Below, in pieces: positions 682-25,435 of a DNA stretch of 33,752 nt; within the stretch, counting starts at the first letter, position 1, and the number at the start of each line of letters is the position of its first letter. The notes under the pieces were generated by a model. That model did no database searches and was not told the origin of the DNA. It worked only from the letters and a program-made list of their open reading frames with translations. The position numbers and the translations under genes were made by a program. Location of the stretch: IMG/VR virus record IMGVR_UViG_3300025590_000024, positions 1-33,752 of that record, one strand, 5' to 3'. The DNA is from a virus.

Positions 682-3042
682 ATGTCTACAACTACAATTA
701 CAGGTACAATTAACGGGGTTAATAACGCAGCCCTTGCCAACAAATGGATCACTTTTCGCCTAGTTCAGCTCGGCACAGACTCTGGGGCAACGGCAACAGT
801 AGCACAAAGCGTAGACTCGGTTCAGACGGATGCTAACGGCGACTTCTCGATTAACGTATGGAACAACGGCGATAGCGGCAAGACAAGTGTACTTGAGATT
901 ACAATTGATGGCTCAAAGGCTGAGTCCGTCATAATCCCCAATGGAACAGCAACCATTGAGCTTTGGGATCTAATTGAAAATTACCAAGCAGATAATGGAA
1001 CAAGTGAGCAGCTTCCTGTCGTGTCTGAATTGTTTCTTCGCAAATCTAATAATCTTAGTGATATAAGCAATAAACTTATTGCAAGTCAAAACCTTGATCT
1101 TGAAATTGGAGTTGACGTTCAATCCTACAACGCAGTTTTAGACGCAACAACAGCAAGTTTTACAACAGCCAAGGACACGGCAATATCAACAAACACGACT
1201 AACATTGCTACTAATGCAACTAACATTGCTACTAATGCAACTAACATTGCTACTAATGCAACTAACATTGATTTAAAGGCTCCAATTGCAAGTCCAACAT
1301 TTACTGGCACTATCAATACATCCGCAACTGGAATTGATTTTAATCCTGACGGTCTAGGTGGAGAAGTAAGTTGGAACAACACGGAAAAAACTTTAGATAT
1401 AGTTACTGGTTCGGACAATGTTACTGTCCAGCTTGGTCAAGAGGTTTTATTGTATTGCCGAAACAAAACAGCAACTGATCTAGTTGAGGGGCAAATAGTC
1501 AAGATTGTTGGGGCAACAGCAAATACTCCAAACATTGAGTTAGCGATTGCATCTACCGCCGATGAAGCACACAAGACATTTGGTGTAGTTACGCAAACAA
1601 TCACGGCAAATAATGGAGAGGGATTTATTACCCTAATGGGCAAGGTTCGTGATCTTAGCCTTAGAACGCAGGATGGATTTGTTGAAGGTGAATTAGTGTA
1701 TCTTAGCTCAACAGTGGCTGGTGCATTAACCCCAACAAAACCGTTAATTGAAGTTGAGATTGGGCGTGTGCTCAGGACTGGAACTGCAAATGGCACACTT
1801 GGTGTTTCCATTAATAATGAAGCATCTGTTTATGAGCTTCAGCAAGAGTTGCTACCCTTAATTGCAATAAACACAGCTAAGATTCCCAATGATCTTACGA
1901 CGGGAACAGCAGACGGCACAACTTTTTTACGTGGTGACAACGAATGGGCAATACCTCTTGGAGGCGGCGGCGGCGACATGACTGCCGCAGTCTATGACTC
2001 TGGAGGGTTGGCATTAAACGTCTATAATAGAACAAACCACACAGGCACACAGACCGCTTCTACTATTTCAGACTTCGATGTGGAGGTGAGTAATAATACA
2101 TCAGTTGTAGATAATTCAGCCAAGATCACAAACGCCACCCACACTGGCGACGTTACGGGGGATACTGCGCTAACAATTGCCACAGGTGCAGTAGACATCT
2201 CGATGCTTTCAGCGAGTGGAACACCCGACGCAACCAGCTTTCTTCGCGGAGACAACACGTGGTCGGTTCCAGCAAGCGGTAATACTACGGTTGAATATCC
2301 ATATACCACAGACTTTCAAAGCGGTGTATCGCAGACTAGAGATTTAAGTGGTATTCTTTCTGTTGCCTCTGGTGGGTATCAAGTAAATGCCAACCTTACG
2401 TCACTCTACATCGGAAGTAAGATCACGGAGATTGGCGGTGATAGTGTGCAGAGTTGCGCAAATCTACTTGATGTTACAATTCCAAATAGTGTAACTGTTA
2501 TTGGAGATAGCTCATTTTTGCTTTGCACGGGACTAACAGGCATTATCATTCCCGACAGTGTTCTTGATATTCAGGCTTCCGCATTTGCAGGTTGCACTGG
2601 GTTGACCAGCGTTACTATTGGTGAAAACGTTTCTCAAATTTTATATGGAGCATTTAGCGGCTGCAACAATGTTGGTTTTACCGAAATTGTCATTCCAAAT
2701 AGCGTCAATACCCTAGGACCCACTGTCTTTGACGGTTGTACAGCACTAACAAGTGTCACCCTCCCAGTTAATCCCAGCTTTACCCTGATTGACGCACAGA
2801 CATTTTTTGGTTGCACTGGACTAGCATCTATTATTATACCCGAAAGTGTTGCCACTATCGGCGCTGAGGCACTCAAAAACTGCACAGCCCTTAGCTCCAT
2901 TTCCTGCCTAAACACAGTTGCGCCAACTCTTGTTGGTAGTGATGTTTTTCTTAATGTATTGGCTACAACAATTGATGTCCCGATTGGGGCAGCTGGCTAC
3001 GGAACTACATACGGCGGTCTTACTGTTAATTACGTTTTATAA
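682..3042 (+). CDS. Tail fibre / receptor-binding protein with C-terminal BspA-type leucine-rich repeats
   Basis: A 786-residue protein. Residues 1-100 look like a beta-rich attachment domain. Around residues 173-197 there are heptad repeats (TNIATNA), a trimeric coiled-coil stalk. Two copies of the phage fibre signature FLRGDN[ET]W (about residues 416 and 515) and HTGTQTASTISDF mark a phage fibre shaft. From about residue 570 to the end lie LRR_5/BspA-like repeats of the type IPNSVTVIG..SF..CTGLTG, ending in a VPIGAAGYGTTYGG closing segment. BspA-type repeats bind surface ligands in bacteria, so this domain is probably the host-receptor tip. No intramolecular chaperone was recognised. Confidence 0.88.
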   Translation: MSTTTITGTINGVNNAALANKWITFRLVQLGTDSGATATVAQSVDSVQTDANGDFSINVWNNGDSGKTSVLEITIDGSKAESVIIPNGTATIELWDLIENYQADNGTSEQLPVVSELFLRKSNNLSDISNKLIASQNLDLEIGVDVQSYNAVLDATTASFTTAKDTAISTNTTNIATNATNIATNATNIATNATNIDLKAPIASPTFTGTINTSATGIDFNPDGLGGEVSWNNTEKTLDIVTGSDNVTVQLGQEVLLYCRNKTATDLVEGQIVKIVGATANTPNIELAIASTADEAHKTFGVVTQTITANNGEGFITLMGKVRDLSLRTQDGFVEGELVYLSSTVAGALTPTKPLIEVEIGRVLRTGTANGTLGVSINNEASVYELQQELLPLIAINTAKIPNDLTTGTADGTTFLRGDNEWAIPLGGGGGDMTAAVYDSGGLALNVYNRTNHTGTQTASTISDFDVEVSNNTSVVDNSAKITNATHTGDVTGDTALTIATGAVDISMLSASGTPDATSFLRGDNTWSVPASGNTTVEYPYTTDFQSGVSQTRDLSGILSVASGGYQVNANLTSLYIGSKITEIGGDSVQSCANLLDVTIPNSVTVIGDSSFLLCTGLTGIIIPDSVLDIQASAFAGCTGLTSVTIGENVSQILYGAFSGCNNVGFTEIVIPNSVNTLGPTVFDGCTALTSVTLPVNPSFTLIDAQTFFGCTGLASIIIPESVATIGAEALKNCTALSSISCLNTVAPTLVGSDVFLNVLATTIDVPIGAAGYGTTYGGLTVNYVL
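1198..1272 (+). repeat. 21-bp tandem repeat encoding coiled-coil heptads
   Basis: Three identical 21-bp units (1198-1218, 1219-1239, 1240-1260) plus a partial fourth. Each encodes exactly one heptad, TNIATNA. Gain or loss of a unit by slippage would stay in frame and keep the coiled-coil register, changing only stalk length. Confidence 0.95.
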
Positions 3043-5042: not shown

Positions 5043-5507
5043 ATGGCATTTATAGTTTCACCTATTCAAAATTTAGGATGCCCAACTGTTCTTTTAAACA
5101 AAGGGATTAGAACTGATTATTCCGTAACTGGAGATCCAGATGATCCTATTATATCTGAAAATTCAATGACATTTGCAACAAGTTCAAATGTAAATACTTC
5201 TCAATTAGTTAAATTTGCAATTTGCGGAGTTAGTAATTTATCATTTTCCTATAATGGATTAATTGAAACGAATGACAGCGGATTTGATGTTTTAAAAATT
5301 ACAGTAAAAGGAATAGATGTAAATTTTTTCTATGAAAGGGAAAGTGTTCAGGGAACACCTGGAGGATATGTATCTGTTTCTGGATCGGACAACGTTGATT
5401 TAGATAATGATAATCCCTGTGGATATTTAGTAGATATTTCTTTTGAAACTGGCGACAGCCAGTTTAACGACGGTGTTTTTTATTCTGTAAATTTAAACTA
5501 CATTTAA
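5043..5507 (+). CDS. Unknown beta-rich structural protein
   Basis: A 154-residue protein with alternating beta-type residues (ISENSMTFATSSNVNTSQLVKFAICGVSNLSF...) and conserved-looking GDPDDP and SGSDNVDLDNDNPCGY segments. It has no signal peptide or membrane helix. It starts one base after the stop of the preceding gene, so the two are likely coupled. A perfect hairpin lies in its last 60 bases. Possibly a small fibre-tip or tail decoration protein; the family is unknown to me. Confidence 0.65.
   Translation: MAFIVSPIQNLGCPTVLLNKGIRTDYSVTGDPDDPIISENSMTFATSSNVNTSQLVKFAICGVSNLSFSYNGLIETNDSGFDVLKITVKGIDVNFFYERESVQGTPGGYVSVSGSDNVDLDNDNPCGYLVDISFETGDSQFNDGVFYSVNLNYI
5446..5465 (+). terminator. 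Hairpin near the end of the 5043-5507 gene
   Basis: AAACTGGC (5446-5453) and GCCAGTTT (5458-5465) pair perfectly around a GACA loop, inside the coding region. A run of six T follows about 10 bases later. The T run is too far away for a standard terminator, so this is a weak call; it could attenuate transcription just before the new promoter-like motif at 5526. Confidence 0.3.
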
Positions 5508-5525
5508 TTACATTACGTGCCACAC

Positions 5526-5544
5526 TTGACACGTATGTTACACT
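5526..5544 (+). promoter_or_regulatory. Copy A of the 19-bp promoter/operator-like motif
   Basis: TTGACACGTATGTTACACT. It differs from the copy at 25187-25205 (minus strand) at only three positions, all in the last five bases. It lies 53 bp upstream of the gene starting at 5597, in an otherwise gene-free gap. It may drive the cluster of candidate ejection proteins (5597-12666). The two -10/-35-like halves are only 7 bp apart, so it is not a normal sigma-70 spacing by itself. Confidence 0.5.
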
Positions 5545-5578
5545 AACACAAACACAAACACAAACACAAACACAAACA
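5545..5578 (+). repeat. ACAAAC microsatellite in a leader
   Basis: About five and a half head-to-tail copies of the 6-bp unit ACAAAC between the 19-bp motif and the ATG at 5597. In the mRNA it would be an unstructured C/A-rich leader with no Shine-Dalgarno sequence, resembling the CA-rich leaders of the early genes on the other strand. Confidence 0.9.
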
Positions 5579-5580
5579 TT

Positions 5581-5599
5581 TAAATAAATATATATTATG
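5581..5599 (+). promoter_or_regulatory. AT-rich start module, copy 1
   Basis: TAAATAAATATATATTATG, ending in the start codon of the 5597 gene. The same 19 bases occur at 5993-6011 and 6520-6538, each ending in the ATG of a consecutive gene. It lacks a Shine-Dalgarno sequence. It could be a translation-start enhancer or a late promoter element; the TATAAATA-like core resembles T4-type late promoters, but no matching sigma factor gene is seen here. Confidence 0.6.
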
Positions 5600-5995
5600 T
5601 ACACAGGAGCACGAAATTTAAGCGGAAATAGGAAATATACTGAAGATGCCATCCTTTATCAAGCATATGATGACAAAAAATGGCAAGAAGAGTGGGAAAA
5701 ATTAACTGGTAGCAATTCAACAGCTCCCATACGAATGATGAGTGGACCAGATGGTCAATTACAGACTAATAATATGGGTTTCTTGCAAGAACAAGCTTTC
5801 GATTATAAGCGAAAACAGCAAGCATTGTCCAGACAAAGATTTCAAGAAAACCTTGATGAAGAACAATGGCGTGATCAGTATAGGAGAAACCGCACATATA
5901 CACCCAATGCATCAGCGATGACGGCGCAACCAAATCAATATGGTTCGTCGTCAAGTGGACCTGGCCCCTCAATGCAAAACCCGTTTCAATTTTAA
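5597..5995 (+). CDS. Small disordered virion-cluster protein, paralogue of the next gene
   Basis: A 132-residue hydrophilic protein rich in Q, N, R and K. The central helix-forming part contains WEKLTGSNSTAP, matching WEQRTGSNTKAP in the next gene, and both end in the same eight residues, SMQNPFQF. The tail of about 35 residues is Ser/Gly/Pro/Asn-rich and probably disordered. The start is set by the AT-rich module ending in ATG 5597. Likely a minor virion or ejection-complex protein, inferred from its place before the large 1265-residue protein. No known family recognised. Confidence 0.7.
   Translation: MYTGARNLSGNRKYTEDAILYQAYDDKKWQEEWEKLTGSNSTAPIRMMSGPDGQLQTNNMGFLQEQAFDYKRKQQALSRQRFQENLDEEQWRDQYRRNRTYTPNASAMTAQPNQYGSSSSGPGPSMQNPFQF
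5966..5995 (+). repeat. 30-bp identical 3' end shared with the next gene (copy 1)
   Basis: Bases 5966-5995 are identical to 6486-6515. Each copy encodes the C-terminal SMQNPFQF and ends at the stop codon, directly followed by the AT-rich start module. Identity at the DNA level, including third codon positions, points to recent duplication or gene conversion. Confidence 0.9.
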
Positions 5996-6011
5996 ATAAA
6001 TATATATTATG
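5993..6011 (+). promoter_or_regulatory. AT-rich start module, copy 2
   Basis: The same 19 bases as at 5581-5599. Here the module begins with the TAA stop codon of the 5597 gene and ends in the ATG of the 6009 gene, so stop, leader and start are one compact cassette. Confidence 0.6.
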
Positions 6012-6515
6012 TACGAAGGACAACCCATAAACAACTTTAATAAAAGTTATAAAAACAAAGCACAAGAACGTTTTGATGAGCAAAATAGAATAAAGATAGA
6101 AAAAAATCGGGCCATGTTGGCTGAACGACAGCGAAAAAAAGAAGCAGATTACCAACTAGATTGGGAGCAAAGAACGGGTAGCAATACTAAAGCTCCAGAT
6201 ACTAGCCATTTAACGGGGGCTTTATCATATATAGACAAAGACCTCTACATGATAGGAGAAGCTAAAAGATATAATGACAAAAAAAAAGCTAATAGGCAAT
6301 TTTATGAAGAACAAAGTAGAGTTCCGACCTATAATCCTGTTACTCTACCAAATCCGACGAATAACAAATGGGAACGCAACAAGATCGACGCAAGGGCAGT
6401 TATTACCGCTTGGAAGAATGGCCTTGGATACGCCAGCCCTAATGGGCGGAACAATTCAAACAGTTCAAACGGATCGATTAATTCTCCCTCAATGCAAAAC
6501 CCGTTTCAATTTTAA
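6009..6515 (+). CDS. Virion-cluster protein carrying a copied fragment of an early gene
   Basis: A 168-residue hydrophilic protein. Residues about 20-60 form a charged helix with the same TGSN..AP motif as its neighbour, and the C-terminus is again SMQNPFQF. Residues 118-142 (NKWERN...WKNGLG) are encoded by a 63-bp stretch identical to part of the early gene 23494-24117 on the opposite strand, read in the same frame. The neighbouring paralogue lacks this insert. A tail of repeated Asn/Ser follows (NNSNSSNGSINS). The protein therefore looks like a paralogue that gained a domain fragment by illegitimate recombination. Function unknown; probably a minor virion protein. Confidence 0.75.
   Translation: MYEGQPINNFNKSYKNKAQERFDEQNRIKIEKNRAMLAERQRKKEADYQLDWEQRTGSNTKAPDTSHLTGALSYIDKDLYMIGEAKRYNDKKKANRQFYEEQSRVPTYNPVTLPNPTNNKWERNKIDARAVITAWKNGLGYASPNGRNNSNSSNGSINSPSMQNPFQF
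6366..6428 (+). repeat. 63-bp exact duplicate of 23836-23898 (opposite strand)
   Basis: Starts AAATGGGAACGCAACAAG and ends GGCCTTGGA. It is base-for-base identical to the reverse complement of 23836-23898 and in the same codon phase in both genes. The two codons just before it also both encode Asn-Asn but use swapped AAT/AAC codons, so the similarity extends slightly further at protein level. Confidence 0.97.
6486..6515 (+). repeat. 30-bp identical 3' end shared with the previous gene (copy 2)
   Basis: Identical to 5966-5995; encodes the SMQNPFQF tail and the stop codon. Confidence 0.9.
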
Positions 6516-6519
6516 TATT

Positions 6520-6538
6520 TAAATAAATATATATTATG
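6520..6538 (+). promoter_or_regulatory. AT-rich start module, copy 3
   Basis: Third copy of the 19-base module, ending in the ATG of the 6536 gene. It follows the stop of the previous gene by 4 bp. Confidence 0.6.
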
Positions 6539-7279
6539 GCAAAAAAACAGATGACTAAAGCTGGAGCAACAGCCTCAGTAATGAGGCTAAGTAGTGAAGC
6601 GGCAAATGAAAAAAGATTGAGGCGTGAAAATCCTTTCTATGACTATGATCAAAGCGCAATTGGCATTGAAAGCAACATTAATCGAAAAAACCTTGAAAGA
6701 GAAATAGAAGATGCTAGGCGTGAAGCAGCCCGTTACCCTAGTGGTAGCAAGCAAGATCGTGCAGCAACACGTAGATGGAACGATCTAAGAGATTCAATGC
6801 GTATTTTTGACGCTCAATTGGATGAATCTAGGCAAGCGTTTATGAGCAATCCAAATAACAATCCAAAAATTGGAGCAACTGGTATTGGGCCTGGTGGAGA
6901 ATATACATATAGTAATGAAACGCAGCCACAGATGCAAATGCCACCTCAGTCTGGACAAGCAAGACCACCACAACAAAGACAAGGTCAACCAAAAGGAATG
7001 CCACAAGAAATGGCTCAGAGTCCAGCAATGGCTCAAGCACGTCGACCAAACTATGGACAATTTAATCAAAATATTGTAAATAATTTAAATCAAAGAGAGG
7101 CCTACATAATGGATGAGCTTGGGGGAAGACCTACACAAGATTTAATAAATCGAAATCCATACGTAAATGAACAATGGAACAACCCTTATAGCAGAAGCCA
7201 ACGAGCCACAGAATATAGTATGGCTAATTATCAAGATCCAAACGCAATGTACGATTATTACCAGAATCTGAATTACTAA
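6536..7279 (+). CDS. Q/N/P-rich virion-cluster protein
   Basis: A 247-residue hydrophilic protein. Residues about 20-105 are charged and helical (EREIEDARREAARYPSG...). Residues about 125-175 are a low-complexity Gln/Pro/Met-rich linker (PPQSGQARPPQQRQGQPKG), and the last part is Tyr/Asn-rich (YQDPNAMYDYYQNLNY). It has no signal peptide or membrane segment. The disordered composition is shared with the flanking genes and fits proteins that must unfold to leave the capsid, but that is inference. No family recognised. Confidence 0.7.
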   Translation: MAKKQMTKAGATASVMRLSSEAANEKRLRRENPFYDYDQSAIGIESNINRKNLEREIEDARREAARYPSGSKQDRAATRRWNDLRDSMRIFDAQLDESRQAFMSNPNNNPKIGATGIGPGGEYTYSNETQPQMQMPPQSGQARPPQQRQGQPKGMPQEMAQSPAMAQARRPNYGQFNQNIVNNLNQREAYIMDELGGRPTQDLINRNPYVNEQWNNPYSRSQRATEYSMANYQDPNAMYDYYQNLNY

Positions 7280-7291
7280 ACAAAACTTATT

Positions 7292-8869
7292 ATGCCAAGC
7301 CAAGCCGAATTAGACGCACAAAACAACGCCTCACGAGCCAGACAACAAGCTAGACGTGGAATTGAACAACCAGCACCACAGATGCAACAGCCGTATGTAA
7401 ACCCATACGGAGGACAGTACGGAACCGACTCAATCCAAGACCAAAGTTATTACGATAATTATTATGATACTTCTGGTGATGGTTATTATGATAATAATGG
7501 CTACTATCAGTCTGGTTATAGTTATGAAGACGAGGGGATGACTGACGAGGAATGGGCGGCTTATTTAGCTGGACTAGAAGAAGGCCAAGGGTCTCAAGAA
7601 GAACCTTCTTACTATTCGGACTACGGCTCACGTATGCCCGATGGACCAATTGAGGCTCCATATCCAGAAGAAAGTTCTTGGATGGATAATTTATCATTTG
7701 GTGCAGATAAATTTCGAGGAAAAACTCCATTTCAGCAACCAGATTGGTTTCAAAAACCAATTGATAGGGTTTCAAATGATTTGAATCAATTTAGTAATGC
7801 ACAGCAAGAACCAGAAGCGGAAACTCCATTCCTGCAATACCTCCAAGAAAACACCGAACAATCTCAAGGTGGTGGAGCTAATCAAATGGAGCAAGGTAGT
7901 GCTGGTTCGCCTCAAAGCAATTACTACGACTTTGTTCAAGGTGGCGGTCAAATGAATGATGAGCAACTTCGTCAAGCTAATGAAATGGCAATGTCTATGG
8001 GTACAACGTTTGATCCAGAGACTGGTTACAGCCGTCAGCCATACCAAGATTACCAAGAGCAGGGTCCACAAGTTCAAGCCCCAATGTCAATAAGTGACAC
8101 TCGTGGAATGCTACAAGAACGATTTGGCTCTCCAACCGTATCTGGTCTATCTCAAAGCAATCAAGAAAGTCAAAATTTCTATGATGATGAATCTATGCGT
8201 CGGGATCAACGTATAGAAAACCGACCAGACTTTAATGAAGTTACTCGTGACATTGATAAGTACGATGATCGCAGGACATTTGCTGAAGCTCGTAGATTAG
8301 TGCCAACTGAACGTGATAAGTATGGTAATATTACCAATCAAGCACAGCAACGTGCAGCAATGACATTAACCGAAAAGGAAGTTCAAGACAAAAAGAGGGA
8401 TGAATATAATGAAGAGTATAGGGCAAAAAACTTAGAAAGAATACAACAAACAATTGATAATGGCAATAAACCAGGTGCAAGTAAACTGGAAAAAAAGAAA
8501 GGAGAGGTTGCCGAAGAAATCTTATTAGTGCAGGAAACATATGCAAACTATCAGCCTTGGATGGGTCAAGCTATTGAAGCCGACAGGATGAATATAGTAC
8601 CAGCACCATCTGGATTTGACAGTCATTTGGATTTTGCAGCATATCAAAATAACTTTAATTTAGATGAACTATATGAAACTATGAATCAAGAAAACAATAA
8701 AGAAGGTGGCGCTGCTCCAGTTAAACAAACTCAACCTGCTGCAACAGGCAGCGCAGCGGGTGGATATGATGAAAGAACTAATTTAGCAATACAAAGGTTT
8801 GCGGATGATAATAAATTGTCCTTAGAAGAAGCAATTAAAAAACTTAAATCTTCGGGAAAAATTAAATAA
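7292..8869 (+). CDS. Large Q/Y-rich candidate internal virion protein
   Basis: A 525-residue acidic, low-complexity protein. The first 120 residues are Tyr/Gln/Asp/Gly-rich (QDQSYYDNYYDTSGDGYYDNNGY...), the middle is Gln/Glu-rich, and residues about 310-400 are a highly charged helix (TRDIDKYDDRRTFAEARR...). The C-terminus (NLAIQRFADDNKLSLEEAIKKLK) looks like a small folded helical hairpin. Its stop overlaps the ATG of the 1265-residue gene (TAATG), so they are translationally coupled and probably made in fixed ratio. A role as ejection or inner-core protein is inferred from order and size. Confidence 0.7.
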   Translation: MPSQAELDAQNNASRARQQARRGIEQPAPQMQQPYVNPYGGQYGTDSIQDQSYYDNYYDTSGDGYYDNNGYYQSGYSYEDEGMTDEEWAAYLAGLEEGQGSQEEPSYYSDYGSRMPDGPIEAPYPEESSWMDNLSFGADKFRGKTPFQQPDWFQKPIDRVSNDLNQFSNAQQEPEAETPFLQYLQENTEQSQGGGANQMEQGSAGSPQSNYYDFVQGGGQMNDEQLRQANEMAMSMGTTFDPETGYSRQPYQDYQEQGPQVQAPMSISDTRGMLQERFGSPTVSGLSQSNQESQNFYDDESMRRDQRIENRPDFNEVTRDIDKYDDRRTFAEARRLVPTERDKYGNITNQAQQRAAMTLTEKEVQDKKRDEYNEEYRAKNLERIQQTIDNGNKPGASKLEKKKGEVAEEILLVQETYANYQPWMGQAIEADRMNIVPAPSGFDSHLDFAAYQNNFNLDELYETMNQENNKEGGAAPVKQTQPAATGSAAGGYDERTNLAIQRFADDNKLSLEEAIKKLKSSGKIK

Positions 8870-11800
8870 TGGCAAAAAAATTATCATATGATTTTTCTGG
8901 ATTTGACGAAATTCAAAACCAATATGAAGTCCCAGAAAGTTATGATTTTTCTGGATTTGATGAAATTCAAGATACATATAAATCCCAAGAAAGTTATGAT
9001 TTTTCTGGATTTGATGAAATTCAATCCGAAGACCAGCAGGACTCCCAAGGCAGATGGCCTGGGGATAAAGGCTACAACCTAGAAGAGGAAGAATACGCAG
9101 ACCCATCTACTGGAGACATCGCCAAAGGTGTGGGTGCTGAAGTATTAGCAAGTGGAGCTGGAGCAGTAGCTGGTGGTGCGCTTGGTGCGCTTGGTGGTCC
9201 CCTAGCGCCTATTACCATTCCACTTGGAATAGCAGCAGGTGGTTTTGCTGGAGGTTTCTTTGGATCATTGTGGGCGCAATACATTGAAGGTCAAGAAAAG
9301 AAGAGTTATGGACGTGCAATCTCCGCTGGTACTGTTAGTGCTATTCCTTTTGGTGGTGCTGGAGTTAAGGCAATTACTGGAGCTACCAAGATTACTGGTA
9401 AGATGATTGCTGGCGCAGCAGGACGTGAAGCTGTTAAGGGTGGAGTTCTTGGAGGCACAGAAGCAACTATAGCAAAAGCAATCGACGAAGGCCGTATGCC
9501 TACCAAAGAAGAGTATGCTGCCTATGTTGGTGGTGGTACTCTGTTTGGTGGTGCGCTTGGTGCAGCTTCTCCTAAGATTGGAAAGTCTATGAACAAGTTC
9601 TTTGGCAAAACACCAGAAGAAATTGACGCAGCTATTGGACGAGGTGAAATTCAATTCAATGATTTTGAAGATTTAATTGTTGATGCTACAGAAACTGTTC
9701 CACGTTTGCGTGCAGATTTTGCAGATGCTCGTATTGCTATGGAGTCTAAGTTAGCGGCAGATGAAATTGCTAACAAAGGAACCAGTAAGCTTGGTCAAGC
9801 GTGGGCATCAATTAAACCATCAGCGTATCTTAAACCGAAAGCAAATCAAGCAGCAATTGATTACTCAAGAAATATCAAAAATTCGCAAGACCTAGCCAAT
9901 AAAATTGCACGTAAAATTAAACTTGAGACAGAGAGGAATCCAAACATTGCAGCAGAAATAGATGACATAATTGATGGTGGTAACACACCAATGAGTAAGG
10001 AAGTCTATGATTCTGTAGGTGCTGAAATTCAGAAGTACCAAGACACAAGGCTTGAGTACCAAAAAGAAATGCTGGAGCTTGTTGATAGCGATGCGTATCG
10101 TTCAATGAGCGAAGAAGGCAAGGAAGAGTTCCAAAAAACATTGCAGGATTCTATTGCTGGAAAAACATACAATCGTCAAGACTACAGGATGTTTCTTGAT
10201 AAAGATTTTAAACCAGATCCAAAACTTAAACAGGCAGCTTTAATTGAATTAACTGAAAAAATGGGAAGTCAAGAAGGGGCTATTGCTCATTTAAATAAAC
10301 TTGAAAATTCTAGTGCTAGAACAAAAGCATTTGATCCTAGATCAAAGGGCAGTGGACAGGGAGTTGATTCAGTAATGAAGAGACGTAGCAATCCTGGACC
10401 TGCCGAAAGAGCTTGGTTGGGAGAGGTTAAGGACAGTCCAGAGAAAGTTATCGGAACACTTACTGGAATCAGTAAAAGCGTTTCAAGGGCTAAAGCAGAT
10501 CAAATTATAGGTGAAGAGTTAATTAACTCTGGTGTAGCTTCTCGCACGCGAGGATCTGGCGACATGGTAGAACTTACCTTTCGAGGAACTGGAGAAAAAG
10601 GTAGTGGCATATATGCTATGCCAGAAGTTCAGATGGCCTTGAATCAAGTTTACTTACCAGAAGTAGATAATAAGACCAACAGCATGGTAATAAACGGATT
10701 ACAAGATTTGTATCGTGCTGGTGTTGCTGGATCAAAGGGAGCAAAGGTTTTGCTAAATACCATTGCTTATCCAGTGCAAGCTTACTCAAATGCTATTACT
10801 CTTGCTGGTCAAGGTATCAATCCATTCAAGGGATCTATGCGTGGTATGGAAATTGCCTTATCTGAATTTGGCTACATACAAGATATACGGAAAAACCCAA
10901 AGGCTCGTCGAGCTGTATTGGATGACATTGATGAAATGAATAAATATGGAATCAAGGGAGTCAGTATTAATGATAGTGATATACGAAATACTTTGGACAA
11001 TGGTTTTTTCTCTGAAAAACTGAGCAAATTATCAGATCCACTGGGTAAAGCTTATAGTACCGCAGATACAATGGGCAGGTATGTTGGGTGGAAGTCTACC
11101 CAGAAAACATTAAAAAAGCAATTCCCTAAAGCTGGTGAGGATCTTCCAGCTTACAAAAAAGCAATGGCTGATTCAGAGATTGCAATGTCACAGGGTGATG
11201 AGATCGGTGCGCAAAGATTTATGGCTGAAGCACAGAACGTAAAGGATGATGTTATCAAAGCACAGTCCGCTAAACTAATTAATGATACTTACCAGAATTA
11301 TGATAAGCTTAGTAACTTTGTAAAGACATTGTCTCGTTGGGGAGTCATGCCTCAGTTTGCATCATTTACAGCTGAGTTTGCTAGAAATCAATACCAACAA
11401 GGGAAAGTAATTAAAGAAATGTTAAGCGGAACTTATGGGGCTGCTGACAATCTCGGACCAGCTAATGTTCGACAAATGCAAATTGATGGAGCTAAGAAAC
11501 TTGCATCATTAACCGCAGTATATGGTTCAACATACGGACTTATAGAAGGAGTTAAAGCAGCAAGTGGAATTGATTCAAGTAAAGAAGATGCTTTGCGAAA
11601 CTTAGTTTATCCAGATTATGACAAGAACAAGGACCTAATGGTTTCTTTAGATGAGGATGGAAAGACTGGCTGGACTGCTAACATGAGCTATATTTCTCCG
11701 CACGCTCTTGGTCAATCAGCATTCAAGGCTGGCATGAGTGGTGAAGATGAAGATTCTCTTATTGGTTTATTGAAAGACGAGATGGTTGGCGAAGGAAGCT

Positions 11801-15584: not shown

Positions 15585-16910
15585 TTAAAAATTATCTACC
15601 ATTGTCTGGTGAGTTACTTGGAAGTCAATACCAACTGTGGTAAGGATACCATTGCGGCACTTCTCCTGCTTAACAGTCTGATAGTAAACTGGTTGACCTT
15701 CCTCTTGAATCTGCCCGTTAGAGTCTCGCTCTGGTCGCTCAATCCTCCAGAAGATGGTAGCATCGTTAAAGATTGCCCGTGATTCACGAGCCTTGCCCTC
15801 CTCGTTTAGCTGTGTGCCAGAGAATGCAACGCAGCGTAGTGACTTCTGCAAACGCTGAATGCCTCCACTCATAGCAGCCACTTCCGCCTCCCGATTGCCC
15901 TTGCCAGAGCCATCCATGATTTGAATGTAGTCAACGCAAAGGATATCAATCTTGCCACACTTAGCTGCAATCTCACGGCAGCGAGTTGTCACGCCACTCA
16001 TAGATTCTGGTGAGTCAAACAAGAACAGTCGGCTGTCCGTCTCTTCCTTCAGCATATTCAAGCACTTGACATATAGCTTCTGCTTGTCTCCAGGGACTGT
16101 GTTCAGCGGCTGACGAGTGTCGATCTTAGCGTAGGAACACGCCGTGTTGTGCCACCAATCTTCCTTGGAACTCTCCAGCAAGAATGCTACAACAATCCAG
16201 TCCTTGTGCTTAAACAAGTTGTGAACAATAATTTGACGCTTTAACGCTGACTTGCCACGCGAACTTGGTGCTGCAATGATAATGTTATTATCCTTGCGGC
16301 GACGATCAATGTGTCCCAGCGTCTCCTCTAGGTGCTTCATGCCCGTGTAAACACGATACTCTTCGGGGATTCGATCCTCCTCCCCGCGAAGCTCCTTCAT
16401 CTTCTGGTCAATAAATTCTACGATCTCCTCCTTGGCTGTCTTATCATCGTCGGCTAGAGTGAGCGTAGATATCTCATTCATCGGCTCGGATATGGCAACC
16501 TTGATATCTTCTGCGGATGCTAGTGGCATCTGTAGCTTCTCCAGCATACTGCGAGTTGCGTGAATCATCTTCCTCTGAAGGAACTTGTTGCGAACATTGC
16601 GTAAAGCCGCAACCCACGTGGACGTATAAACAATTGGCAGAGCCATCATAAGTGACATTGCTGTGTCTACTTCCATTCGATCCTTTGCCATATTCGATTG
16701 AAGAACTGGCAGAACTGAAAGCTCGCTGATGTCTTGCCCAGCATCGAAGACTTGGCGAATAGATTCAAACATGACTTGATTCTCAAGCGAGAAAAACCAA
16801 TCCTTGGTTGCTCCCTCTGCAATGATCGAAGCCGCATCGTGCTGTAACATTTGACCGAGGATCGTCTGCTCGGATTGAAGGCTGTGGGGGTAATTTTCTG
16901 CTATGTCCAT
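15585..16910 (-). CDS. DnaB-like replicative helicase
   Basis: A 441-residue protein. An N-terminal helical domain (about 1-110, LQSEQTILGQML) is followed by a RecA-like motor: Walker A APSSRGKS (214-221), Walker B ILCVDYIQIM (323-332) with D327, and SGTQLNEEG (364-372) in the position of the DnaB LSQLNR-type motif. It unwinds DNA at the fork as a hexamer. The length is normal for DnaB. Its ATG lies inside the last codons of the initiator gene (10-bp overlap), so loader/initiator and helicase are coupled. No separate primase gene is seen, so priming probably uses the host enzyme. Confidence 0.9.
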   Translation of the reverse strand: MDIAENYPHSLQSEQTILGQMLQHDAASIIAEGATKDWFFSLENQVMFESIRQVFDAGQDISELSVLPVLQSNMAKDRMEVDTAMSLMMALPIVYTSTWVAALRNVRNKFLQRKMIHATRSMLEKLQMPLASAEDIKVAISEPMNEISTLTLADDDKTAKEEIVEFIDQKMKELRGEEDRIPEEYRVYTGMKHLEETLGHIDRRRKDNNIIIAAPSSRGKSALKRQIIVHNLFKHKDWIVVAFLLESSKEDWWHNTACSYAKIDTRQPLNTVPGDKQKLYVKCLNMLKEETDSRLFLFDSPESMSGVTTRCREIAAKCGKIDILCVDYIQIMDGSGKGNREAEVAAMSGGIQRLQKSLRCVAFSGTQLNEEGKARESRAIFNDATIFWRIERPERDSNGQIQEEGQPVYYQTVKQEKCRNGILTTVGIDFQVTHQTMVDNF

Positions 16911-17779
16911 TGTGGTGGTGTTCCTAGTTTTGGTTGTGGTTGATGATTCTTTCTATGCCAATCGGCAGCCCTGTCAAGCTCTCCCGAAAAATTGTTTAGC
17001 AGAGTCGCGTAGCTTTTGCGAGCGTAAGTTTCTTTTTGTGGTGCTGCGTAGAATGCTTCTATCTGTTGCCACTCCCGTTCGGTTGTTGACTTAACAATCT
17101 TCTCGGCTGACTGCCAAGCGGATAGTTCAGATTTGTCTAGAGTCCTTTCCTCTGGACGATTGAATAATTTCTCGGAACGCAACTGGTGAGCCTCCTTCGT
17201 TGGAACATAAGTAGTTTTATTATCTTCTTTTCTTCTTAACTTCTTATCTTCTTTAGATGTGGTTACTTTGCGGTTAGTTTGCTGGTTAGTTGCTGGTTGA
17301 TCTGTGGTTGATTTGCGGTTAGCTGAGTTTTTCTCGGTGCTGTAAGTGTCGTATTGACAGTCACTTAGTGAAGAATCTTGATGGTTAGTTGCTGGTTGAT
17401 CTGTGGTTGATTTGCGGTTAGTTTGCTGGTTAGTTTGCTGGTTAGCTGCTGGTTGATCTACGCTTTTATCGGGGTTGTAAGTGTCGTAATGACAGACACT
17501 TAGGATAGAAAACTTGCTGGTTACTTGCTGGTTGATTGACTGTGAGTTTACTAGCTTTTTGATGGTTGTTCTGATGGTTTGTTCAGACAGACCTAGCTGC
17601 TCAGATAGTGCCTTTCGACCCGTGACGATTGATCCGCGAGGAATATCGTAACCCTTGTAGGTTGATTCATTCCAGTTAGCCTTGAGCATTAGATGCAAGA
17701 AGACACGGACGCAATTGGTATCGTCATACCATTCCCATTCAGTCATCTTTCGATATAGTTTTATGTAAGTCCCGTTCAT
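16901..17779 (-). CDS. DnaD-like replication initiator / replisome organiser
   Basis: A 292-residue protein. Residues 1-110 match the N-terminal winged-helix domain of phage replisome organisers: YIKLYRKMTEWEWYDD, IPRGSIVTGRKALSEQLGLSEQTIRTTIKKLV, then SVCHYDTYN. Residues about 110-175 are a repeated Gln/Asn/Thr-rich linker (DQPAANQQTNQQTNRKSTT...), including a second DCQYDTYS copy, produced by internal duplication. The C-terminal part (ARKSYATLLNNFSGELDRAADWHR) is probably the helicase-contact region. It overlaps the helicase gene by 10 bp. It starts after the clearest CA-rich leader of the genome (ccacaaccacaacaataaaATG). The repeats may double as the replication origin. Confidence 0.8.
   Translation of the reverse strand: MNGTYIKLYRKMTEWEWYDDTNCVRVFLHLMLKANWNESTYKGYDIPRGSIVTGRKALSEQLGLSEQTIRTTIKKLVNSQSINQQVTSKFSILSVCHYDTYNPDKSVDQPAANQQTNQQTNRKSTTDQPATNHQDSSLSDCQYDTYSTEKNSANRKSTTDQPATNQQTNRKVTTSKEDKKLRRKEDNKTTYVPTKEAHQLRSEKLFNRPEERTLDKSELSAWQSAEKIVKSTTEREWQQIEAFYAAPQKETYARKSYATLLNNFSGELDRAADWHRKNHQPQPKLGTPPQWT
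17283..17421. repeat. Two identical 40-bp direct repeats inside the initiator gene
   Basis: Copies at 17283-17322 and 17382-17421 (start TGGTTAGTTGCTGGTTGATC on the + strand); a degenerate part-copy occurs at about 17438-17458. The core GGTTAG/GGTTGAT recurs many times around them. Such iteron-like arrays inside an initiator gene resemble the lambda O-gene origin arrangement. Confidence 0.9.
17343..17502. repeat. Pair of inverted repeats inside the initiator gene
   Basis: At 17478-17502, TAAGTGTC and GACACTTA form perfect 8-bp arms around 9 bases. At 17343-17367, TAAGTG and CACTTA form a related dyad. They lie 135 bp apart (45 codons) and correspond to the duplicated CxYDTY protein segment. 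They may be hairpins or protein-binding sites at an origin. Confidence 0.75.
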
Positions 17780-19414: not shown

Positions 19415-19969
19415 TTATTTGGTTTCTGTTAGTTCTCCTTTACGGATATTCTTTAGCGATTCTACGTCTGGATTTTGACGTAGGTTTACTGGAATGCTGC
19501 TCCATGCCTTGCCTAGCGCGTCAACTGTCTTAGCTCCTGCCAACTTAGCTACTGCGTCTTCCTTTGTCATCTGTGGCTTGCGCTTCATAGCTCCTTCGCC
19601 GTCATCATCTTCACTAGGCAATCCTACTGCACTTTGAAGCCCATAGCGACGAGCGTAAGTAACGGCACTACCCATTCCCTGTGGATCTGATTTAACGCAG
19701 TCTAGGAGGAAGTCTCCAGAGACCCACTCGCCACTCTCGTGTAGGATTACAGTCTCTACTCCAGCCGAGCCTTCCCCAGATACTGGAAACTGCATGAATC
19801 CAAGTCCGTGGTTGGCGAATGGTTCTTTAACGCAAGAGATCACCTCTTCCAAGTTGGCGTAGTTGCTCTTGAAGAATGGATTCTTGGCGGATTTCTTAGC
19901 TCCAGACATTTCGGCTTGAGCCTTAACAAATGCTGCTGCTAGGTTTGTGATTGATTCTGATGATTTCAT
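19415..19969 (-). CDS. erf: ERF-family single-strand annealing protein
   Basis: A 184-residue protein with the ERF core: AKNPFFKSNYANLEEVISCVKEP (about 29-50), VETVILHESGEW (71-82) and DPQGMGSAVTYARRYGLQSAVGLPSEDDDGE (95-125). ERF proteins form rings that anneal complementary single strands, used for recombination and circularisation of terminally redundant phage DNA. The C-terminal 60 residues are a charged linker and small helical tail. The SSB-like gene follows after 14 bp, the usual pairing. This supports a circularly permuted or redundant genome. The leader is CA-type (ctacatcaacataataccaatATG). Confidence 0.92.
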   Translation of the reverse strand: MKSSESITNLAAAFVKAQAEMSGAKKSAKNPFFKSNYANLEEVISCVKEPFANHGLGFMQFPVSGEGSAGVETVILHESGEWVSGDFLLDCVKSDPQGMGSAVTYARRYGLQSAVGLPSEDDDGEGAMKRKPQMTKEDAVAKLAGAKTVDALGKAWSSIPVNLRQNPDVESLKNIRKGELTETK

Positions 19970-21374: not shown

Positions 21375-21703
21375 TACTTCGGTCGGTAGGGAACTCTAAG
21401 TTTGTTAGACCAAGTGGAGTATGAGCTGTAAGGCACGCCGACCGCGCCGCACGCATCTCGACCATTCATCCCCTTGTCTCGGTATTGATTCACAAGGTCA
21501 ATGGTTGCTCGTCGCTTGACTGCATCAAACCTTCCCTCGTGTCCAGTTGGCTTTTTCTTCTGGACTGGAAATTTAAGCATATCCCCGAAGGCATTGCTCT
21601 CAATGTCCTGTTTTATCATTGCTGCCAAAACCTCAAACTTGGTTGGAACGATTTCCGATTCTTTTGATGCTAGGTATTCTACTGCCGATGTGTATTTGCT
21701 CAT
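21374..21703 (-). CDS. Helix-turn-helix-like protein
   Basis: A 109-residue protein from ATG 21703 (MSKYTSAVEYLASKESEIVPTKFE...). The frame is open to a TTG at 21778, but that region forms hairpins and lacks a start context. The C-terminal part, ATIDLVNQYRDKGMNGRDACGAVGVPYSSYSTWSNKLRV, reads as a helix-turn-helix (helix, GMNGRDACGAVGVPYSSYSTW). It could be a small transcription regulator or a DNA-binding adaptor. Its stop overlaps the next start. The fold assignment is by eye. Confidence 0.6.
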   Translation of the reverse strand: MSKYTSAVEYLASKESEIVPTKFEVLAAMIKQDIESNAFGDMLKFPVQKKKPTGHEGRFDAVKRRATIDLVNQYRDKGMNGRDACGAVGVPYSSYSTWSNKLRVPYRPK

Positions 21704-21734
21704 GTCTAATTGCCGCTTAGCGGTCTTTATTATG

Positions 21735-21830
21735 GTTAAAAGGGGTAGCCCCCTGCTTTCACCCTTAAAGCCCCTCAACGCGCTGTGAGGCGTGCTGAGA
21801 GGCTAGGGGTGACAACGGCTGGCTTTGTCT
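21735..21830 (-). promoter_or_regulatory. Structured leader upstream of the HTH-like gene
   Basis: On the minus strand, CCTCTCAGC (near 21807) can pair with GTTGAGGGG (near 21775), and further down GGGG-CTA-CCCC followed by TTTT forms a short terminator-like hairpin, 30-50 bases before the ATG at 21703. No CA-rich leader is present here. The structure could regulate the HTH-like gene; the evidence is complementarity only. Confidence 0.3.
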
Positions 21831-21835
21831 AGGGT

Positions 21836-22264
21836 TTAGTTGAATTTAATGCTAGGTGCTTTATTGCCAATATTGATGGTGGCTGTGCTAAACGGGGACT
21901 CCATAATGGTTTGCATAGCCTCCTCAATACTACTCACTCCCCAATATTCTTTTTTGTTATCTTGGTCAGTCACAACAAACGGAGCTAAGTTGAATATAGC
22001 GTGCGCCTGGTTTAGTTCTTCCATTGATTTCTTTAGGTTACTCATATGTTTTTGGGTTGGTTGGTTGGATACTTCTAGGAATTCTCTAGCCAAGCTGTCG
22101 ATCATCTCCCAGATGCCATGTGGCTCCCACTCTTCAAGTGGTTCCCACCTGTGGTCTCGGATGAAGTCCATGATTTCTTGCTCGTCTAACTCGTCGAAGT
22201 TCGATGGCAGTTCATCAGTTAGGTAATGTCTTGACGCTCTTGTGTATGCTTCTGTTTTATTCAT
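21836..22264 (-). CDS. Unknown protein, possibly a fusion of two small ORFs
   Basis: A 142-residue acidic protein. The N-terminal half (SNFDELDEQEIMDFIRDHRWEPLEEWEPHGIWEMI) and C-terminal half (MSNLKKSMEELNQAHAIFNLAPF...) look like separate small domains. The join, VSNQPTQKHM, is encoded by ccaaccaacccaaaaacatATG, i.e. a typical CA-rich leader plus an internal ATG at 22045 (a 69-residue product). The true start at 22264 also has a CA-rich leader (ccaattaaccacacgtaaaaATG). No family recognised. Confidence 0.6.
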   Translation of the reverse strand: MNKTEAYTRASRHYLTDELPSNFDELDEQEIMDFIRDHRWEPLEEWEPHGIWEMIDSLAREFLEVSNQPTQKHMSNLKKSMEELNQAHAIFNLAPFVVTDQDNKKEYWGVSSIEEAMQTIMESPFSTATINIGNKAPSIKFN

Positions 22265-22283
22265 TTTTACGTGTGGTTAATTG

Positions 22284-22314
22284 GCGAGCTGTTTCCATAT
22301 TGGAAATAGCTCGC
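22284..22314 (-). terminator. Strong intergenic hairpin
   Basis: GCGAGCT (22284-22290) pairs with AGCTCGC (22308-22314), extended by a G-T pair and TTTCC/GGAAA to an almost continuous 13-bp stem with a 4-5 base loop. It lies between 22322 (gene end) and 22264 (gene start). There is no T tract on either strand, so it may be an RNA-processing or stability element rather than a terminator. Confidence 0.5.
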
Positions 22315-22321
22315 TTGTGGT

Positions 22322-22600
22322 TTAGATTCTCTCGATTAGGAATGCCATTATTGACAAACCTAGTGCTATGACAAGACCTATTTTGAAGTTTTTTGCTATT
22401 GCAACCTCTTGACTAGTAAGCACTTCCGCGCTCGGCTCTTCTAAAGGCACAAGCAATGCCTCGTAAGACTGGCTTTCAGCGTCACGCATAGTAAGCGTAG
22501 GGTTAGCCCGAATGACTGCTTTGGCTTCCTCAATAGTCAATGCGTTGTCGTTTACCCGCTCTAATCCGAACGGCGTGTTTTTATAGATGTGTAGCTTCAT
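22322..22600 (-). CDS. Small protein with a C-terminal membrane anchor
   Basis: A 92-residue protein. Residues 1-65 look soluble (MKLHIYKNTPFGLERVNDNALTIEEAKAVIRANPTL..., SYEALLVPLEE); residues about 72-89 are a single hydrophobic helix (FKIGLVIALGLSIMAFLI), ending ERI. It is therefore a tail-anchored inner-membrane protein with the N-terminus probably inside. It follows the preceding gene by 4 bp. Unknown family; could act in superinfection exclusion or host takeover. Confidence 0.65.
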   Translation of the reverse strand: MKLHIYKNTPFGLERVNDNALTIEEAKAVIRANPTLTMRDAESQSYEALLVPLEEPSAEVLTSQEVAIAKNFKIGLVIALGLSIMAFLIERI

Positions 22601-22604
22601 GTTA

Positions 22605-22880
22605 TTAATCTTTTGAAGTTAGGGTTTCATTATTAGCCTTTCTTAACCTATCGCAAGCTTTTTCAATCCATTGCGGCTCGCTGTCTTTTTCATCAAATCG
22701 ACTGATCTCATAAACAATTGAGTCGTCAAGGGTTGCAAAGTCTTTAACGCTTAAAGTGCCAGCGTTAAAGTGGCGTTCAATGCGCTTTTCTAGTACGTAC
22801 AGCTCGGATAATCCCGCCTTGCTTACTTGCTCTTCAAAGTGCTTGGCCGTTTCGTTTTGTATTTGTTTTTCTGTTTTCAT
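22605..22880 (-). CDS. Small helical unknown protein
   Basis: A 91-residue charged, helical protein (MKTEKQIQNETAKHFEEQVSKAGLSELYVLEKRIERHFNAGTL...). It starts after a CA-rich leader (aaacagaccactaataaaATG). Coupled to the membrane-anchored protein 4 bp downstream. No family recognised. Confidence 0.65.
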   Translation of the reverse strand: MKTEKQIQNETAKHFEEQVSKAGLSELYVLEKRIERHFNAGTLSVKDFATLDDSIVYEISRFDEKDSEPQWIEKACDRLRKANNETLTSKD

Positions 22881-22967
22881 TTTATTAGTGGTCTGTTTAT
22901 GTTTAATGCCGTTTAATGGGACATAAATGCCCCTTAAAGGCGTTTTTATTGTTTGCTAGGGTATAGA

Positions 22968-23207
22968 CTAGCAAAAGACTTGCAACGCGCTTTTTACGCC
23001 CGATTTATTCGCGCCCGCTTCCATTAGCGCAATAGCGTAAATTTCAGCGTGTTTTCTATTTCCTTTACTGAGTACAGAAAGCAATTGCCCGTATTTTCCG
23101 TAATGGTTTTGCGTAGTTTTAACGCTCTTCTCTATTGCCTTGACTGTTTCTAGGAAGTCATTCGCTAGATCTGTGATTAGTTCTTTTTGTTTTTCGTTTA
23201 GTTTCAT
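22968..23207 (-). CDS. Small helical basic protein
   Basis: A 79-residue protein (MKLNEKQKELITDLANDFLETVKAIEKSVKTTQNHYGKYGQLLSVL...) that is all-helical and ends LMEAGANKSGVKSALQVFC. The leader is the ACCACAA type (gcaaaccacaaaacaaaagaaaaATG). It lies in the GCGC-rich part of the early arm. No family recognised. Confidence 0.65.
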   Translation of the reverse strand: MKLNEKQKELITDLANDFLETVKAIEKSVKTTQNHYGKYGQLLSVLSKGNRKHAEIYAIALMEAGANKSGVKSALQVFC

Positions 23208-23300
23208 TTTTCTTTTGTTTTGTGGTTTGCTTGCGCTTGAATGCGCTTTAAAGGAGTTTTAATCGATTGCAAGGGTTGCCTATGGTCTTGCACCCCGAAA

Positions 23301-23324
23301 CCCCGTAGCGGTTAAACTACGGGG
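23301..23324 (-). terminator. Hairpin after the 50-residue gene
   Basis: CCCCGTAG (23301-23308) pairs perfectly with CTACGGGG (23317-23324) around an 8-base loop. On the minus strand it is followed by TTTC, and it lies 16 bp past the stop at 23340. It is a probable weak intrinsic terminator. Confidence 0.6.
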
Positions 23325-23339
23325 CGAGTGGTTTGAGGG

Positions 23340-23492
23340 TTATTCCTTCCTATAAAAGATCATGTAAAGGTTTGAACGTTCCTTGCGGTTATTTACTTGC
23401 TTAAAGCCTTGCGCCTTTAGGCTTTCGACTTCTTGCGCGTTTTCTTCGCTGAATGTTAGGCCATAAAGTTTAACTTCTTTAAAGGTTTCCAT
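23340..23492 (-). CDS. Small unknown protein, coupled to the glycosylase-like gene
   Basis: A 50-residue protein from ATG 23492 (METFKEVKLYGLTFSEENAQEVESLKAQGFKQVNNRKERSNLYMIFYRKE). The frame extends to 23546, but that would overlap the upstream gene; the chosen ATG comes one base after the upstream TAG. The pattern beta-alpha-beta-beta with a basic middle suggests a small RNA/DNA-binding or antirestriction-type fold. No family recognised. Confidence 0.6.
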   Translation of the reverse strand: METFKEVKLYGLTFSEENAQEVESLKAQGFKQVNNRKERSNLYMIFYRKE

Positions 23493-23493
23493 A

Positions 23494-24117
23494 CTATCGC
23501 CCCCAACTTTCTTTAATCGAAACCCATACAATGGCTTGCAACTCATAACCCTTTAAATCGCTTTCTTTTGCGATTTGCGCGGTGATGGCTTCTATTCTTC
23601 TGTATTGCTTTGCTGTTACTGTTTCGACTGTTTCGGTGATGCCGTCTTTAGGTTTAACTAAACAGGCGCGAATGTGCCATTTATCAATTGTAATATGTTC
23701 GCTTGACAATAAGCCAACATTCATTGCAAAGGCGTGTGTTTTAGGCGCACTTGACGCAATGCGTTCGCCTTCATTCAATGCTCTAAAGGCTTTCAACTTG
23801 TTGGGCGTGTATGTGCAGACCTTTACAGATTCAGCTCCAAGGCCATTCTTCCAAGCGGTAATAACTGCCCTTGCGTCGATCTTGTTGCGTTCCCATTTAT
23901 TGTTAGGCGAAAGCATTGAAATAACGCTTGCGACAATATACGCGGGCAAGTCAAATTCCTTTGCTAGTGACTTGCAAAAGGCTTGCGCTTCTTTATACCA
24001 TTCCAAGCCGATTTGCTTGTTTTCATCGCTTGCGCTTGCTAGCCAAGATTTAAGATTTGCGCGGATTTGCGCGTCTGTTGCGCTTGCTACTGACAGTTTA
24101 TTTCTGTTATTTTTCAT
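23494..24117 (-). CDS. DNA-glycosylase-like (HhH-type) protein, source of the copied fragment
   Basis: A 207-residue helical protein. SVISMLSPNNKWERNK (from about residue 66) and HITIDKWHIRACLVKP (about 142-157) recall the LSP/T..N and VDTHVxR regions of HhH-GPD base-excision glycosylases; the second has D and R at similar spacing. I recognise related uncharacterised proteins in other phages, but activity is not proven and the fold call is by eye. The 63 bases encoding KWERN...NGLG are identical to part of the late gene 6009-6515. The leader is ACCACAA-type (gaaaaccacaaaccaaaagaaaaATG). A short upstream frame (24107-24142, 11 codons, MKTTNQKKNEK) overlaps its start. Confidence 0.6.
   Translation of the reverse strand: MKNNRNKLSVASATDAQIRANLKSWLASASDENKQIGLEWYKEAQAFCKSLAKEFDLPAYIVASVISMLSPNNKWERNKIDARAVITAWKNGLGAESVKVCTYTPNKLKAFRALNEGERIASSAPKTHAFAMNVGLLSSEHITIDKWHIRACLVKPKDGITETVETVTAKQYRRIEAITAQIAKESDLKGYELQAIVWVSIKESWGR
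23836..23898 (-). repeat. 63-bp exact duplicate of 6366-6428 (opposite strand)
   Basis: Reverse complement identical over all 63 bases. Here it forms part of an apparently intact domain, with helices continuing on both sides, so this copy is likely the donor. Confidence 0.97.
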
Positions 24118-24152
24118 TTTTCTTTTGGTTTGTGGTTTTCATTTGCCAGGTG

Positions 24153-24202
24153 TTGGCGCGCCAAAGCCCGCGCAATCAATTAAGAAGGGCGGGCGCAAGG
24201 TT
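24153..24202 (-). terminator. GC hairpin and 12-bp palindrome after the 48-residue gene
   Basis: On the minus strand GCCCGC (near 24198) pairs with GCGGGC (near 24168) and is followed by TTT, a terminator-like structure about 20 bp after the stop at 24218. Immediately after it is the perfect palindrome TTGGCGCGCCAA (24153-24164). Confidence 0.5.
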
Positions 24203-24217
24203 TAGGCTCTTACTTGG

Positions 24218-24364
24218 CTATTCCGATTCGTACCCGTCAAACCAGCCATTTCCACTAGTCTTTTCGTCTTGGCAATGGGCTTGCGCTTGTTCAAGGGTTA
24301 AACCCTTTTTAAGCGTACGGTTTGAACCGTTAAAACGGAAGCGTATAATTTTATAAGTTGTCAT
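24218..24364 (-). CDS. Conserved-looking small protein ending GWFDGYE
   Basis: A 48-residue protein (MTTYKIIRFRFNGSNRTL, then KKGLTLEQAQAHCQDEKTS, then GNGWFDGYESE). The pattern of a short strand, KKGLTLEEAQAHC and a final GWFDGYE is one I recognise from small proteins of many tailed phages; its function is not known. The leader carries two ACCACAA elements (ctaaaccacaaaccacaagaaaacATG). Too short for standard ORF listings. Confidence 0.75.
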   Translation of the reverse strand: MTTYKIIRFRFNGSNRTLKKGLTLEQAQAHCQDEKTSGNGWFDGYESE

Positions 24365-24389
24365 GTTTTCTTGTGGTTTGTGGTTTAGT

Positions 24390-24488
24390 TTATGCGGGTA
24401 TTCCGTAAAAGAACATTAGGCCAAAGGCAGCACCCATTGCAAGCGCAAGTATTAAGTTTTTGAGGGTTTCTTTTATTTTGTTTTTCAT
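24390..24488 (-). CDS. 32-residue single-helix membrane peptide
   Basis: MKNKIKETLKN followed by a hydrophobic helix (LILALAMGAAFGLMFFYGI) and PA. A basic N-terminus and one transmembrane segment suggest a tiny inner-membrane peptide. It has the same CA-rich leader type (aacacaaaccaaacgaataATG) and neat spacing between neighbours, which supports translation. Role unknown. Confidence 0.55.
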   Translation of the reverse strand: MKNKIKETLKNLILALAMGAAFGLMFFYGIPA

Positions 24489-24513
24489 TATTCGTTTGGT
24501 TTGTGTTGGTGGT

Positions 24514-24675: not shown

Positions 24676-24688
24676 AGTTGGTTTTTAG

Positions 24689-24916: not shown

Positions 24917-24958
24917 ATCGCAAGCAAGCGAAAACAAACGGCAACAACGCAAGACAGA

Positions 24959-25429: not shown

Positions 25430-25435
25430 GTAGTC

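Follow-up and report, generated by a model that had tools for sequence, protein, structure and literature searches.

A stretch of 63 identical nucleotides is shared, in inverted orientation and in the same reading frame, between a DUF7178 gene and an orphan gene of this phage genome. We consider it quite probable that a short fragment of DUF7178 was copied ectopically into the orphan within the same lineage, by template switching or strand annealing, and that it was tolerated there in a flexible tail of the protein. The window, that is the whole stretch of DNA analysed, is the entire IMG/VR record of 33,752 bases, which is classed as linear. L003, an independent contig assembled from a different metagenome, matches window positions 21642-33752 without a difference and continues for 160 bases beyond the right end into a further gene; the window is therefore incomplete. 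The features directly concerned are:

6009-6515 (+): recipient orphan gene, 168 aa; two long predicted helices, an Asn/Ser-rich tail carrying the insert, then PSMQNPFQF
6366-6428 (+): inserted copy KWERNKIDARAVITAWKNGLG, 21 codons within ORF 6009-6515
6354-6365 (+): CCGACGAATAAC, to which the homology probably extends on the left; other DUF7178 alleles match at 10/12 positions, the resident one at 7/12
23494-24117 (-): DUF7178 gene, 207 aa; PF23802, E 2e-29
23836-23898 (-): source-like copy in the DUF7178 gene, identical 63 nt; residues 73-93 (74-94 when the M at 24117 is counted as 1)

An exact inverted repeat between two genes

Bases 6366-6428 (+) equal the reverse complement of 23836-23898 at 63 of 63 positions, and the exact match ends there on both sides; once mismatches are allowed, the arms grow to 74 nt at 95% identity. 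Both copies, which lie 17.4 kb apart, translate to KWERNKIDARAVITAWKNGLG (21 codons) within their own ORFs in the same codon phase. The perfect identity and the shared phase with the same 21 residues, as reported in the preliminary description, were thus reproduced. Its labels "early" and "late structural" for the two genes are inferences from position and strand.

The chance baseline was taken from 50 fifth-order Markov simulations of the window, in which the longest dispersed inverted repeat measured 13-19 nt. Among 20 related phage records (864 kb, mostly partial, window included), no other dispersed inverted exact repeat of at least 24 nt was present. Setting aside terminal repeats, which are overlaps of circular records, and a block that one record carries twice, 62.6 kb apart, at its end, the longest dispersed direct repeat across these mostly partial records was 34 nt. 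Given the simulated lengths and this rarity among related phages, the 63-nt repeat is real and unusual. A 30-mer from the segment, searched in IMG/VR, matched only the DUF7178 copy of L003.

The 6366 copy is known from a single metagenomic contig; no independent contig was found on that side, and a 97.6% identical contig (L132) happens to stop at window base 5516, all of which would suit an assembly or library artefact. However, a single open frame, which has the recipient's own start and its conserved tail, runs through both junctions of the insert, and this makes an assembly chimaera an unlikely source of the 6366 copy. An assembler would need reads with both junctions to set a copy between two unrelated flanks, the window contains no N, and the second assembly, L003, dealt cleanly with the 23836 copy, which it confirms. 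The probability that the repeat was produced by an artefact is therefore judged to be very slight.

The DUF7178 gene as the origin of the segment

The gene at 23494-24117 is a clear member of DUF7178 (PF23802; phrog_3842): it scored 103 bits against a gathering cut-off of 27 and covered model positions 7-191 of 193. The recipient gave no match to this Pfam model, nor to any family in profile searches, and has just one helix of DUF7178, the common part being 21-25 codons. The family was found in at least 80 IMG/VR loci and in 104 named phage records, including phages of roseobacters, cyanobacteria and actinobacteria; no paper on it was found in the literature searched. In an alignment of 59 DUF7178 sequences, K73, W74, N77 and D80 are invariant and all lie inside the copied stretch, and the conserved L68, S69, N71 and N72 stand just ahead of it. 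The copied piece comprises one predicted helix (74-89) plus its ends or caps, at the most conserved motif of the family.

This wide conservation points to DUF7178 as the ancestral home of the segment, and because the segment bears the family signature and is not known from elsewhere, the piece will have moved from a DUF7178 gene into the orphan. Copying in that direction is well supported. The preliminary description had named the enzyme-like gene as the likely donor; its DUF7178 origin is upheld by the 59 proteins and 32 IMG/VR matches, whereas the resident gene is not required as the immediate donor, in view of the 12 nt to the left of the insert (see below).

The AF2 model of the DUF7178 protein has a pLDDT of 92.9, and its best structural matches are OGG-type HhH-GPD glycosylases (SsOgg, 3fhg; archaeal Ogg, 3knt and 3fhf). 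The Foldseek matches to archaeal Ogg and OGG1 had a probability of 0.99 but E 0.04 and TM 0.44, below the thresholds. In profile comparisons the gene matched PRK01229 (NCBIfam N-glycosylase/DNA lyase) at E 0.0016, far under the cut-off, the Ogg-HhH profile at E 0.066 and, weakly, the archaeal Ogg PDB profile at E 0.3. K125 and D144, candidates for the catalytic Lys and Asp of the HhH-GPD motif, are invariant in the 59 sequences; an alignment with archaeal Ogg placed D144, but not the Lys, at the enzymes' ID-R stretch. Two depositors have annotated DUF7178 relatives as glycosylases. The source protein is thus a probable, unproven distant relative of OGG-type HhH DNA glycosylases, and its activity is a predicted one.

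The recipient gene and its surroundings

The neighbourhood of the recipient contains further exact copies, listed here with the adjacent gene:

5597-5995 (+): neighbouring gene, 132 aa, weak paralogue without the insert
5966-5995 (+): the last 30 bp of the 5597 gene, repeated exactly at 6486-6515
6486-6515 (+): the last 30 bp of the 6009 gene, repeated exactly at 5966-5995
5579-5599 (+): leader TTTAAATAAATATATATTATG, first of three copies
5991-6011 (+): leader TTTAAATAAATATATATTATG, second copy
6518-6538 (+): leader TTTAAATAAATATATATTATG, third copy, ahead of ORF 6536-7279

The products of 5597-5995 and 6009-6515 match at BLASTP E 0.006. They have in common the start MY-G, the motif W-E--TGSN--AP and the C-terminal PSMQNPFQF, which is encoded by the 30 identical bases; the resemblance is weak outside these motifs. 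A neighbouring paralogue that lacks the stretch yet keeps the TGSN--AP motif and the tail, as had been described earlier, is therefore confirmed, and it supports the view that the segment is an insertion. Searches of IMG/VR, of one genome for each of 84,980 species and of named phages found no ortholog of the recipient. All 32 other IMG/VR places resembling it are DUF7178 genes, matched via the insert. Because a recipient with an empty site was likewise not found in those searches, the case for an insertion comes from the weak paralogue alone. In a single-sequence model of the recipient (pLDDT 66, only suggestive), the insert lies in a low-confidence tail after the two long helices.

Orthologs of the genes at 5597, 6536, 7292 and 8869 were not found in IMG/VR either. 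In a relative (L135), identity is about 90% over the head genes and 91% within the large downstream gene, and the genes between them are unrelated; the late regions of other relatives differ again, with different genes at the recipient's place. By this comparison the segment around the recipient is hypervariable and the recipient is fast-evolving. When 5500-8868 was scanned for more copied pieces, nothing came up beyond the leaders, the gene end of 30 bp, one simple repeat and a match of 16 nt that belongs to a promoter-like motif. A short ACAAAC tandem array at 5545-5578 directly follows the promoter-like motif and precedes the first leader; L132 ends just before it (5516). Further downstream, three 54-nt repeats (YDFSGFDEIQ) occupy 8887-9048 at the start of a 1265-aa protein, where relatives have other lineage-specific repeats (FGRIIEDEEPEFTR in L135 and EADRDPVGFIAP in L131).

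Age of the copy and its left border

The two copies in the window differ at 0/63 positions, which by arithmetic gives a 95% upper bound on divergence near 4.6%, whereas the allele of the sister phage L004 differs at 9/63. Copying was thus recent relative to that split, or the copies have been homogenised, in agreement with the earlier statement that they are recent or kept alike by conversion.

The right edge of the insert holds: the right flank showed no similarity to DUF7178 alleles. The left edge had also been placed at the end of the exact match, at 6366, which is probably not correct. The 12 nt before it (CCGACGAATAAC) match the DUF7178 genes of other phages at up to 10/12 positions (TCGCCGAATAAC) and the resident gene at 7/12 (TCGCCTAACAAT). 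Such a score is attained by 0.2-0.5% of the in-frame 12-mers taken from the same late genes (P about 0.002-0.005), and Asn is frequent in the recipient, where it makes up 20 of the 147 residues that lie outside the insert. The homology would thus probably begin before 6366, about 12 bases further left, and the homologous block probably spans about 25 codons (~75 nt). Because the left 12 nt fit other alleles better, the fragment may have come directly from the allele of a sister phage. If a DUF7178 allele with CCGAATAAC directly before the exact 63 nt exists, it would mean a one-step donation from such an allele.

The better fit of the left flank to other alleles also means that a one-step copy from the resident gene leaves something unexplained. 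It could be accounted for by an older, longer insertion in which gene conversion through ERF annealing has kept 63 bp alike. The 12 bp on the left would then have been spared, or recombination with another phage would have replaced the upstream part of the resident gene. The 10/12 against 7/12 matches speak for such a history, and so does a 25-nt exact stretch (GCTTTCGCCTAACAATAAATGGGAA) that the resident gene has in common with the DUF7178 gene of L029 (protein 60% identical) across the left border, which hints at recombination; it is a weak hint that the resident gene may have been overwritten upstream at a later time. However, the 12-nt signal is weak in view of its P value and the abundance of Asn in the recipient, and conversion inside the 63 bp has left no direct sign. 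Homogenisation of an older insertion is accordingly regarded as rather unlikely, while still deserving some weight.

How the fragment may have been copied

In the reading that we favour, a DUF7178 fragment (63 identical nt, probably about 75 nt in all) would have been copied ectopically into the orphan gene through a template switch or the annealing of strands at a microhomology of a few bases, while the DNA was being replicated or recombined. Either the resident DUF7178 gene or, in a co-infection, the allele of a sister phage would have served as donor. The insert would have been retained as its length is a multiple of three, it brings no stop in the recipient frame, and it falls in a flexible tail between the helices and the conserved C-terminal peptide. 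The other exact copies in the same 1-kb stretch (the 30-bp gene end in two copies and the 21-bp leader in three) are counted as recent and support copying. A candidate agent is encoded in the window:

19415-19969 (-): ERF single-strand annealing protein, candidate recombination agent; PF04404, E 3.8e-24; phrog_2324, E 1.2e-44

In a lambda assay, efficient recombination of 78%-identical DNA by the Erf protein of phage D3 has been reported (PMC3945230), and RecET joining is described as possible at 5-13 bp in work cited in PMC2327257. Template switching between inverted copies has been documented in genes with spacers of up to 70 bp (PMC8604942); at the 17.4 kb seen here, an inter-molecular event would be more plausible. 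Both the copying mechanism and the part of ERF in it are what we infer, not what we observe.

The preliminary description had also proposed that the genome may invert between the copies. As these are opposed, exact and in the same frame, recombination between them would flip 17.4 kb and exchange the ends of the two genes, and both inversion products would be in-frame chimaeras. The replication genes, however, would land on the opposite strand relative to the rest, and the independent contig L003 crosses the 23.8-kb copy uninverted, in standard orientation. The proposal found no support, and an inversion switch is considered extremely improbable.

Shared frame and function of the insert

Random 63-bp pieces of the source gene that leave the recipient open fall in their native frame in 186 of 478 cases (39%). 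Phase agreement is thus expected from the need of the recipient to stay open, and same-phase reading is weak evidence of function. It had been suggested that the insert gives a virion protein a nucleic-acid-contact helix. As a selected graft, the helix would equip a protein that enters the virion or the cell together with the genome, by packaging or injection, for nucleic-acid contact or for interaction. In its favour, the segment is one helix with caps, taken from the most conserved motif of a probable glycosylase-like fold, and a very large late protein is encoded downstream of the recipient. Against it stand the low confidence of the recipient model at the insert, the phase agreement expected in 39% of cases given an open frame, and the failure of the searches to find recipient orthologs with which selection could be gauged. 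Moreover, a lone helix out of a globular enzyme core is not expected to work alone. The suggestion is unsupported, with the single-sequence model placing the insert in the low-confidence tail; the virion location and the nucleic-acid-contact role of the recipient are guesses, and we assign a selected graft a small probability. The absence of function is likewise deduced and not observed. Antisense regulation between the copies was considered separately and rejected, since both mRNAs carry the same sense strand and do not pair.

Other features of the genome

A promoter-like motif, TTGACA-N-GTRTGTTAYAAT, occurs at 5526-5544 (+), 25187-25205 (-), 25316-25334 (+) and 25411-25429 (+), upstream of the orphan genes, the early genes and the packaging genes. 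Its TTGACA-to-TATAAT gap is 7 bases only. The four sites compare with 0.24 expected, and three are also present in the sister contig L004. Dense degenerate repeats of the TTGCTGGTTAGTTGCTGGTTGATCTGTGG type fill 17234-17557 inside a DnaD-like helicase loader gene (16901-17779) and are possibly an origin or a repetitive protein segment. Overlapping 13-nt units like GAATTTGTGGATT at 24788-24935, in the divergent region between early and late genes, form a candidate replication origin or control region. The tail-fibre-like protein encoded at 682-3042 has a stretch of BspA-type leucine-rich repeats close to the C-terminus, which varies in relatives.

Relation to known systems

The event is of a known kind, phage protein mosaicism, and what is unusual here is the very small scale and the location within one genome. 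In the (sub)domain mosaicism described for phage proteins (Nat Commun 2023, PMC10684548), unrelated proteins likewise contain a recently exchanged fragment. The present pair, at 100% over 21 aa, lies above the level taken as recent, an identity of 90% or more along a fragment shared by proteins that are otherwise unrelated, and the fragment is shorter than the domains treated in that study. The recent cases there are domains exchanged between proteins of different phages, whereas here 21 codons are shared within one genome at 100% DNA identity. Rad52-like recombinases including Erf are described in PMC3945230 and PMC2327257 as phage annealing proteins that act at short or diverged homology, and an ERF protein is encoded here; the mosaicism treated there is exchange between homologous sequences, whereas the present copy is ectopic and inverted. 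Template-switch mutations at inverted repeats (PMC8604942) are alike in that short inverted copies are made identical in coding sequence and proteins are altered, but in those cases arms of 7-16 bp lie at most 70 bp apart, compared with arms of 63 bp that are 17.4 kb apart here.

A broader possibility, which we regard as unlikely, is that the 5.5-8.9 kb segment is a site of ongoing late-gene birth, where short pieces are repeatedly patched in from the phage's own genome or those of its relatives. If so, gene birth under way would be visible in the 63-bp copy, in the shared 30-bp gene ends and in the three identical leaders. The repeat itself provides a base-level case of a phage gene remodelled by a piece of an unrelated gene, at a 21-codon scale that domain-based surveys of mosaicism would miss. 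It also gives an opening to study whether annealing proteins of the ERF type make coding novelty through short ectopic copying.
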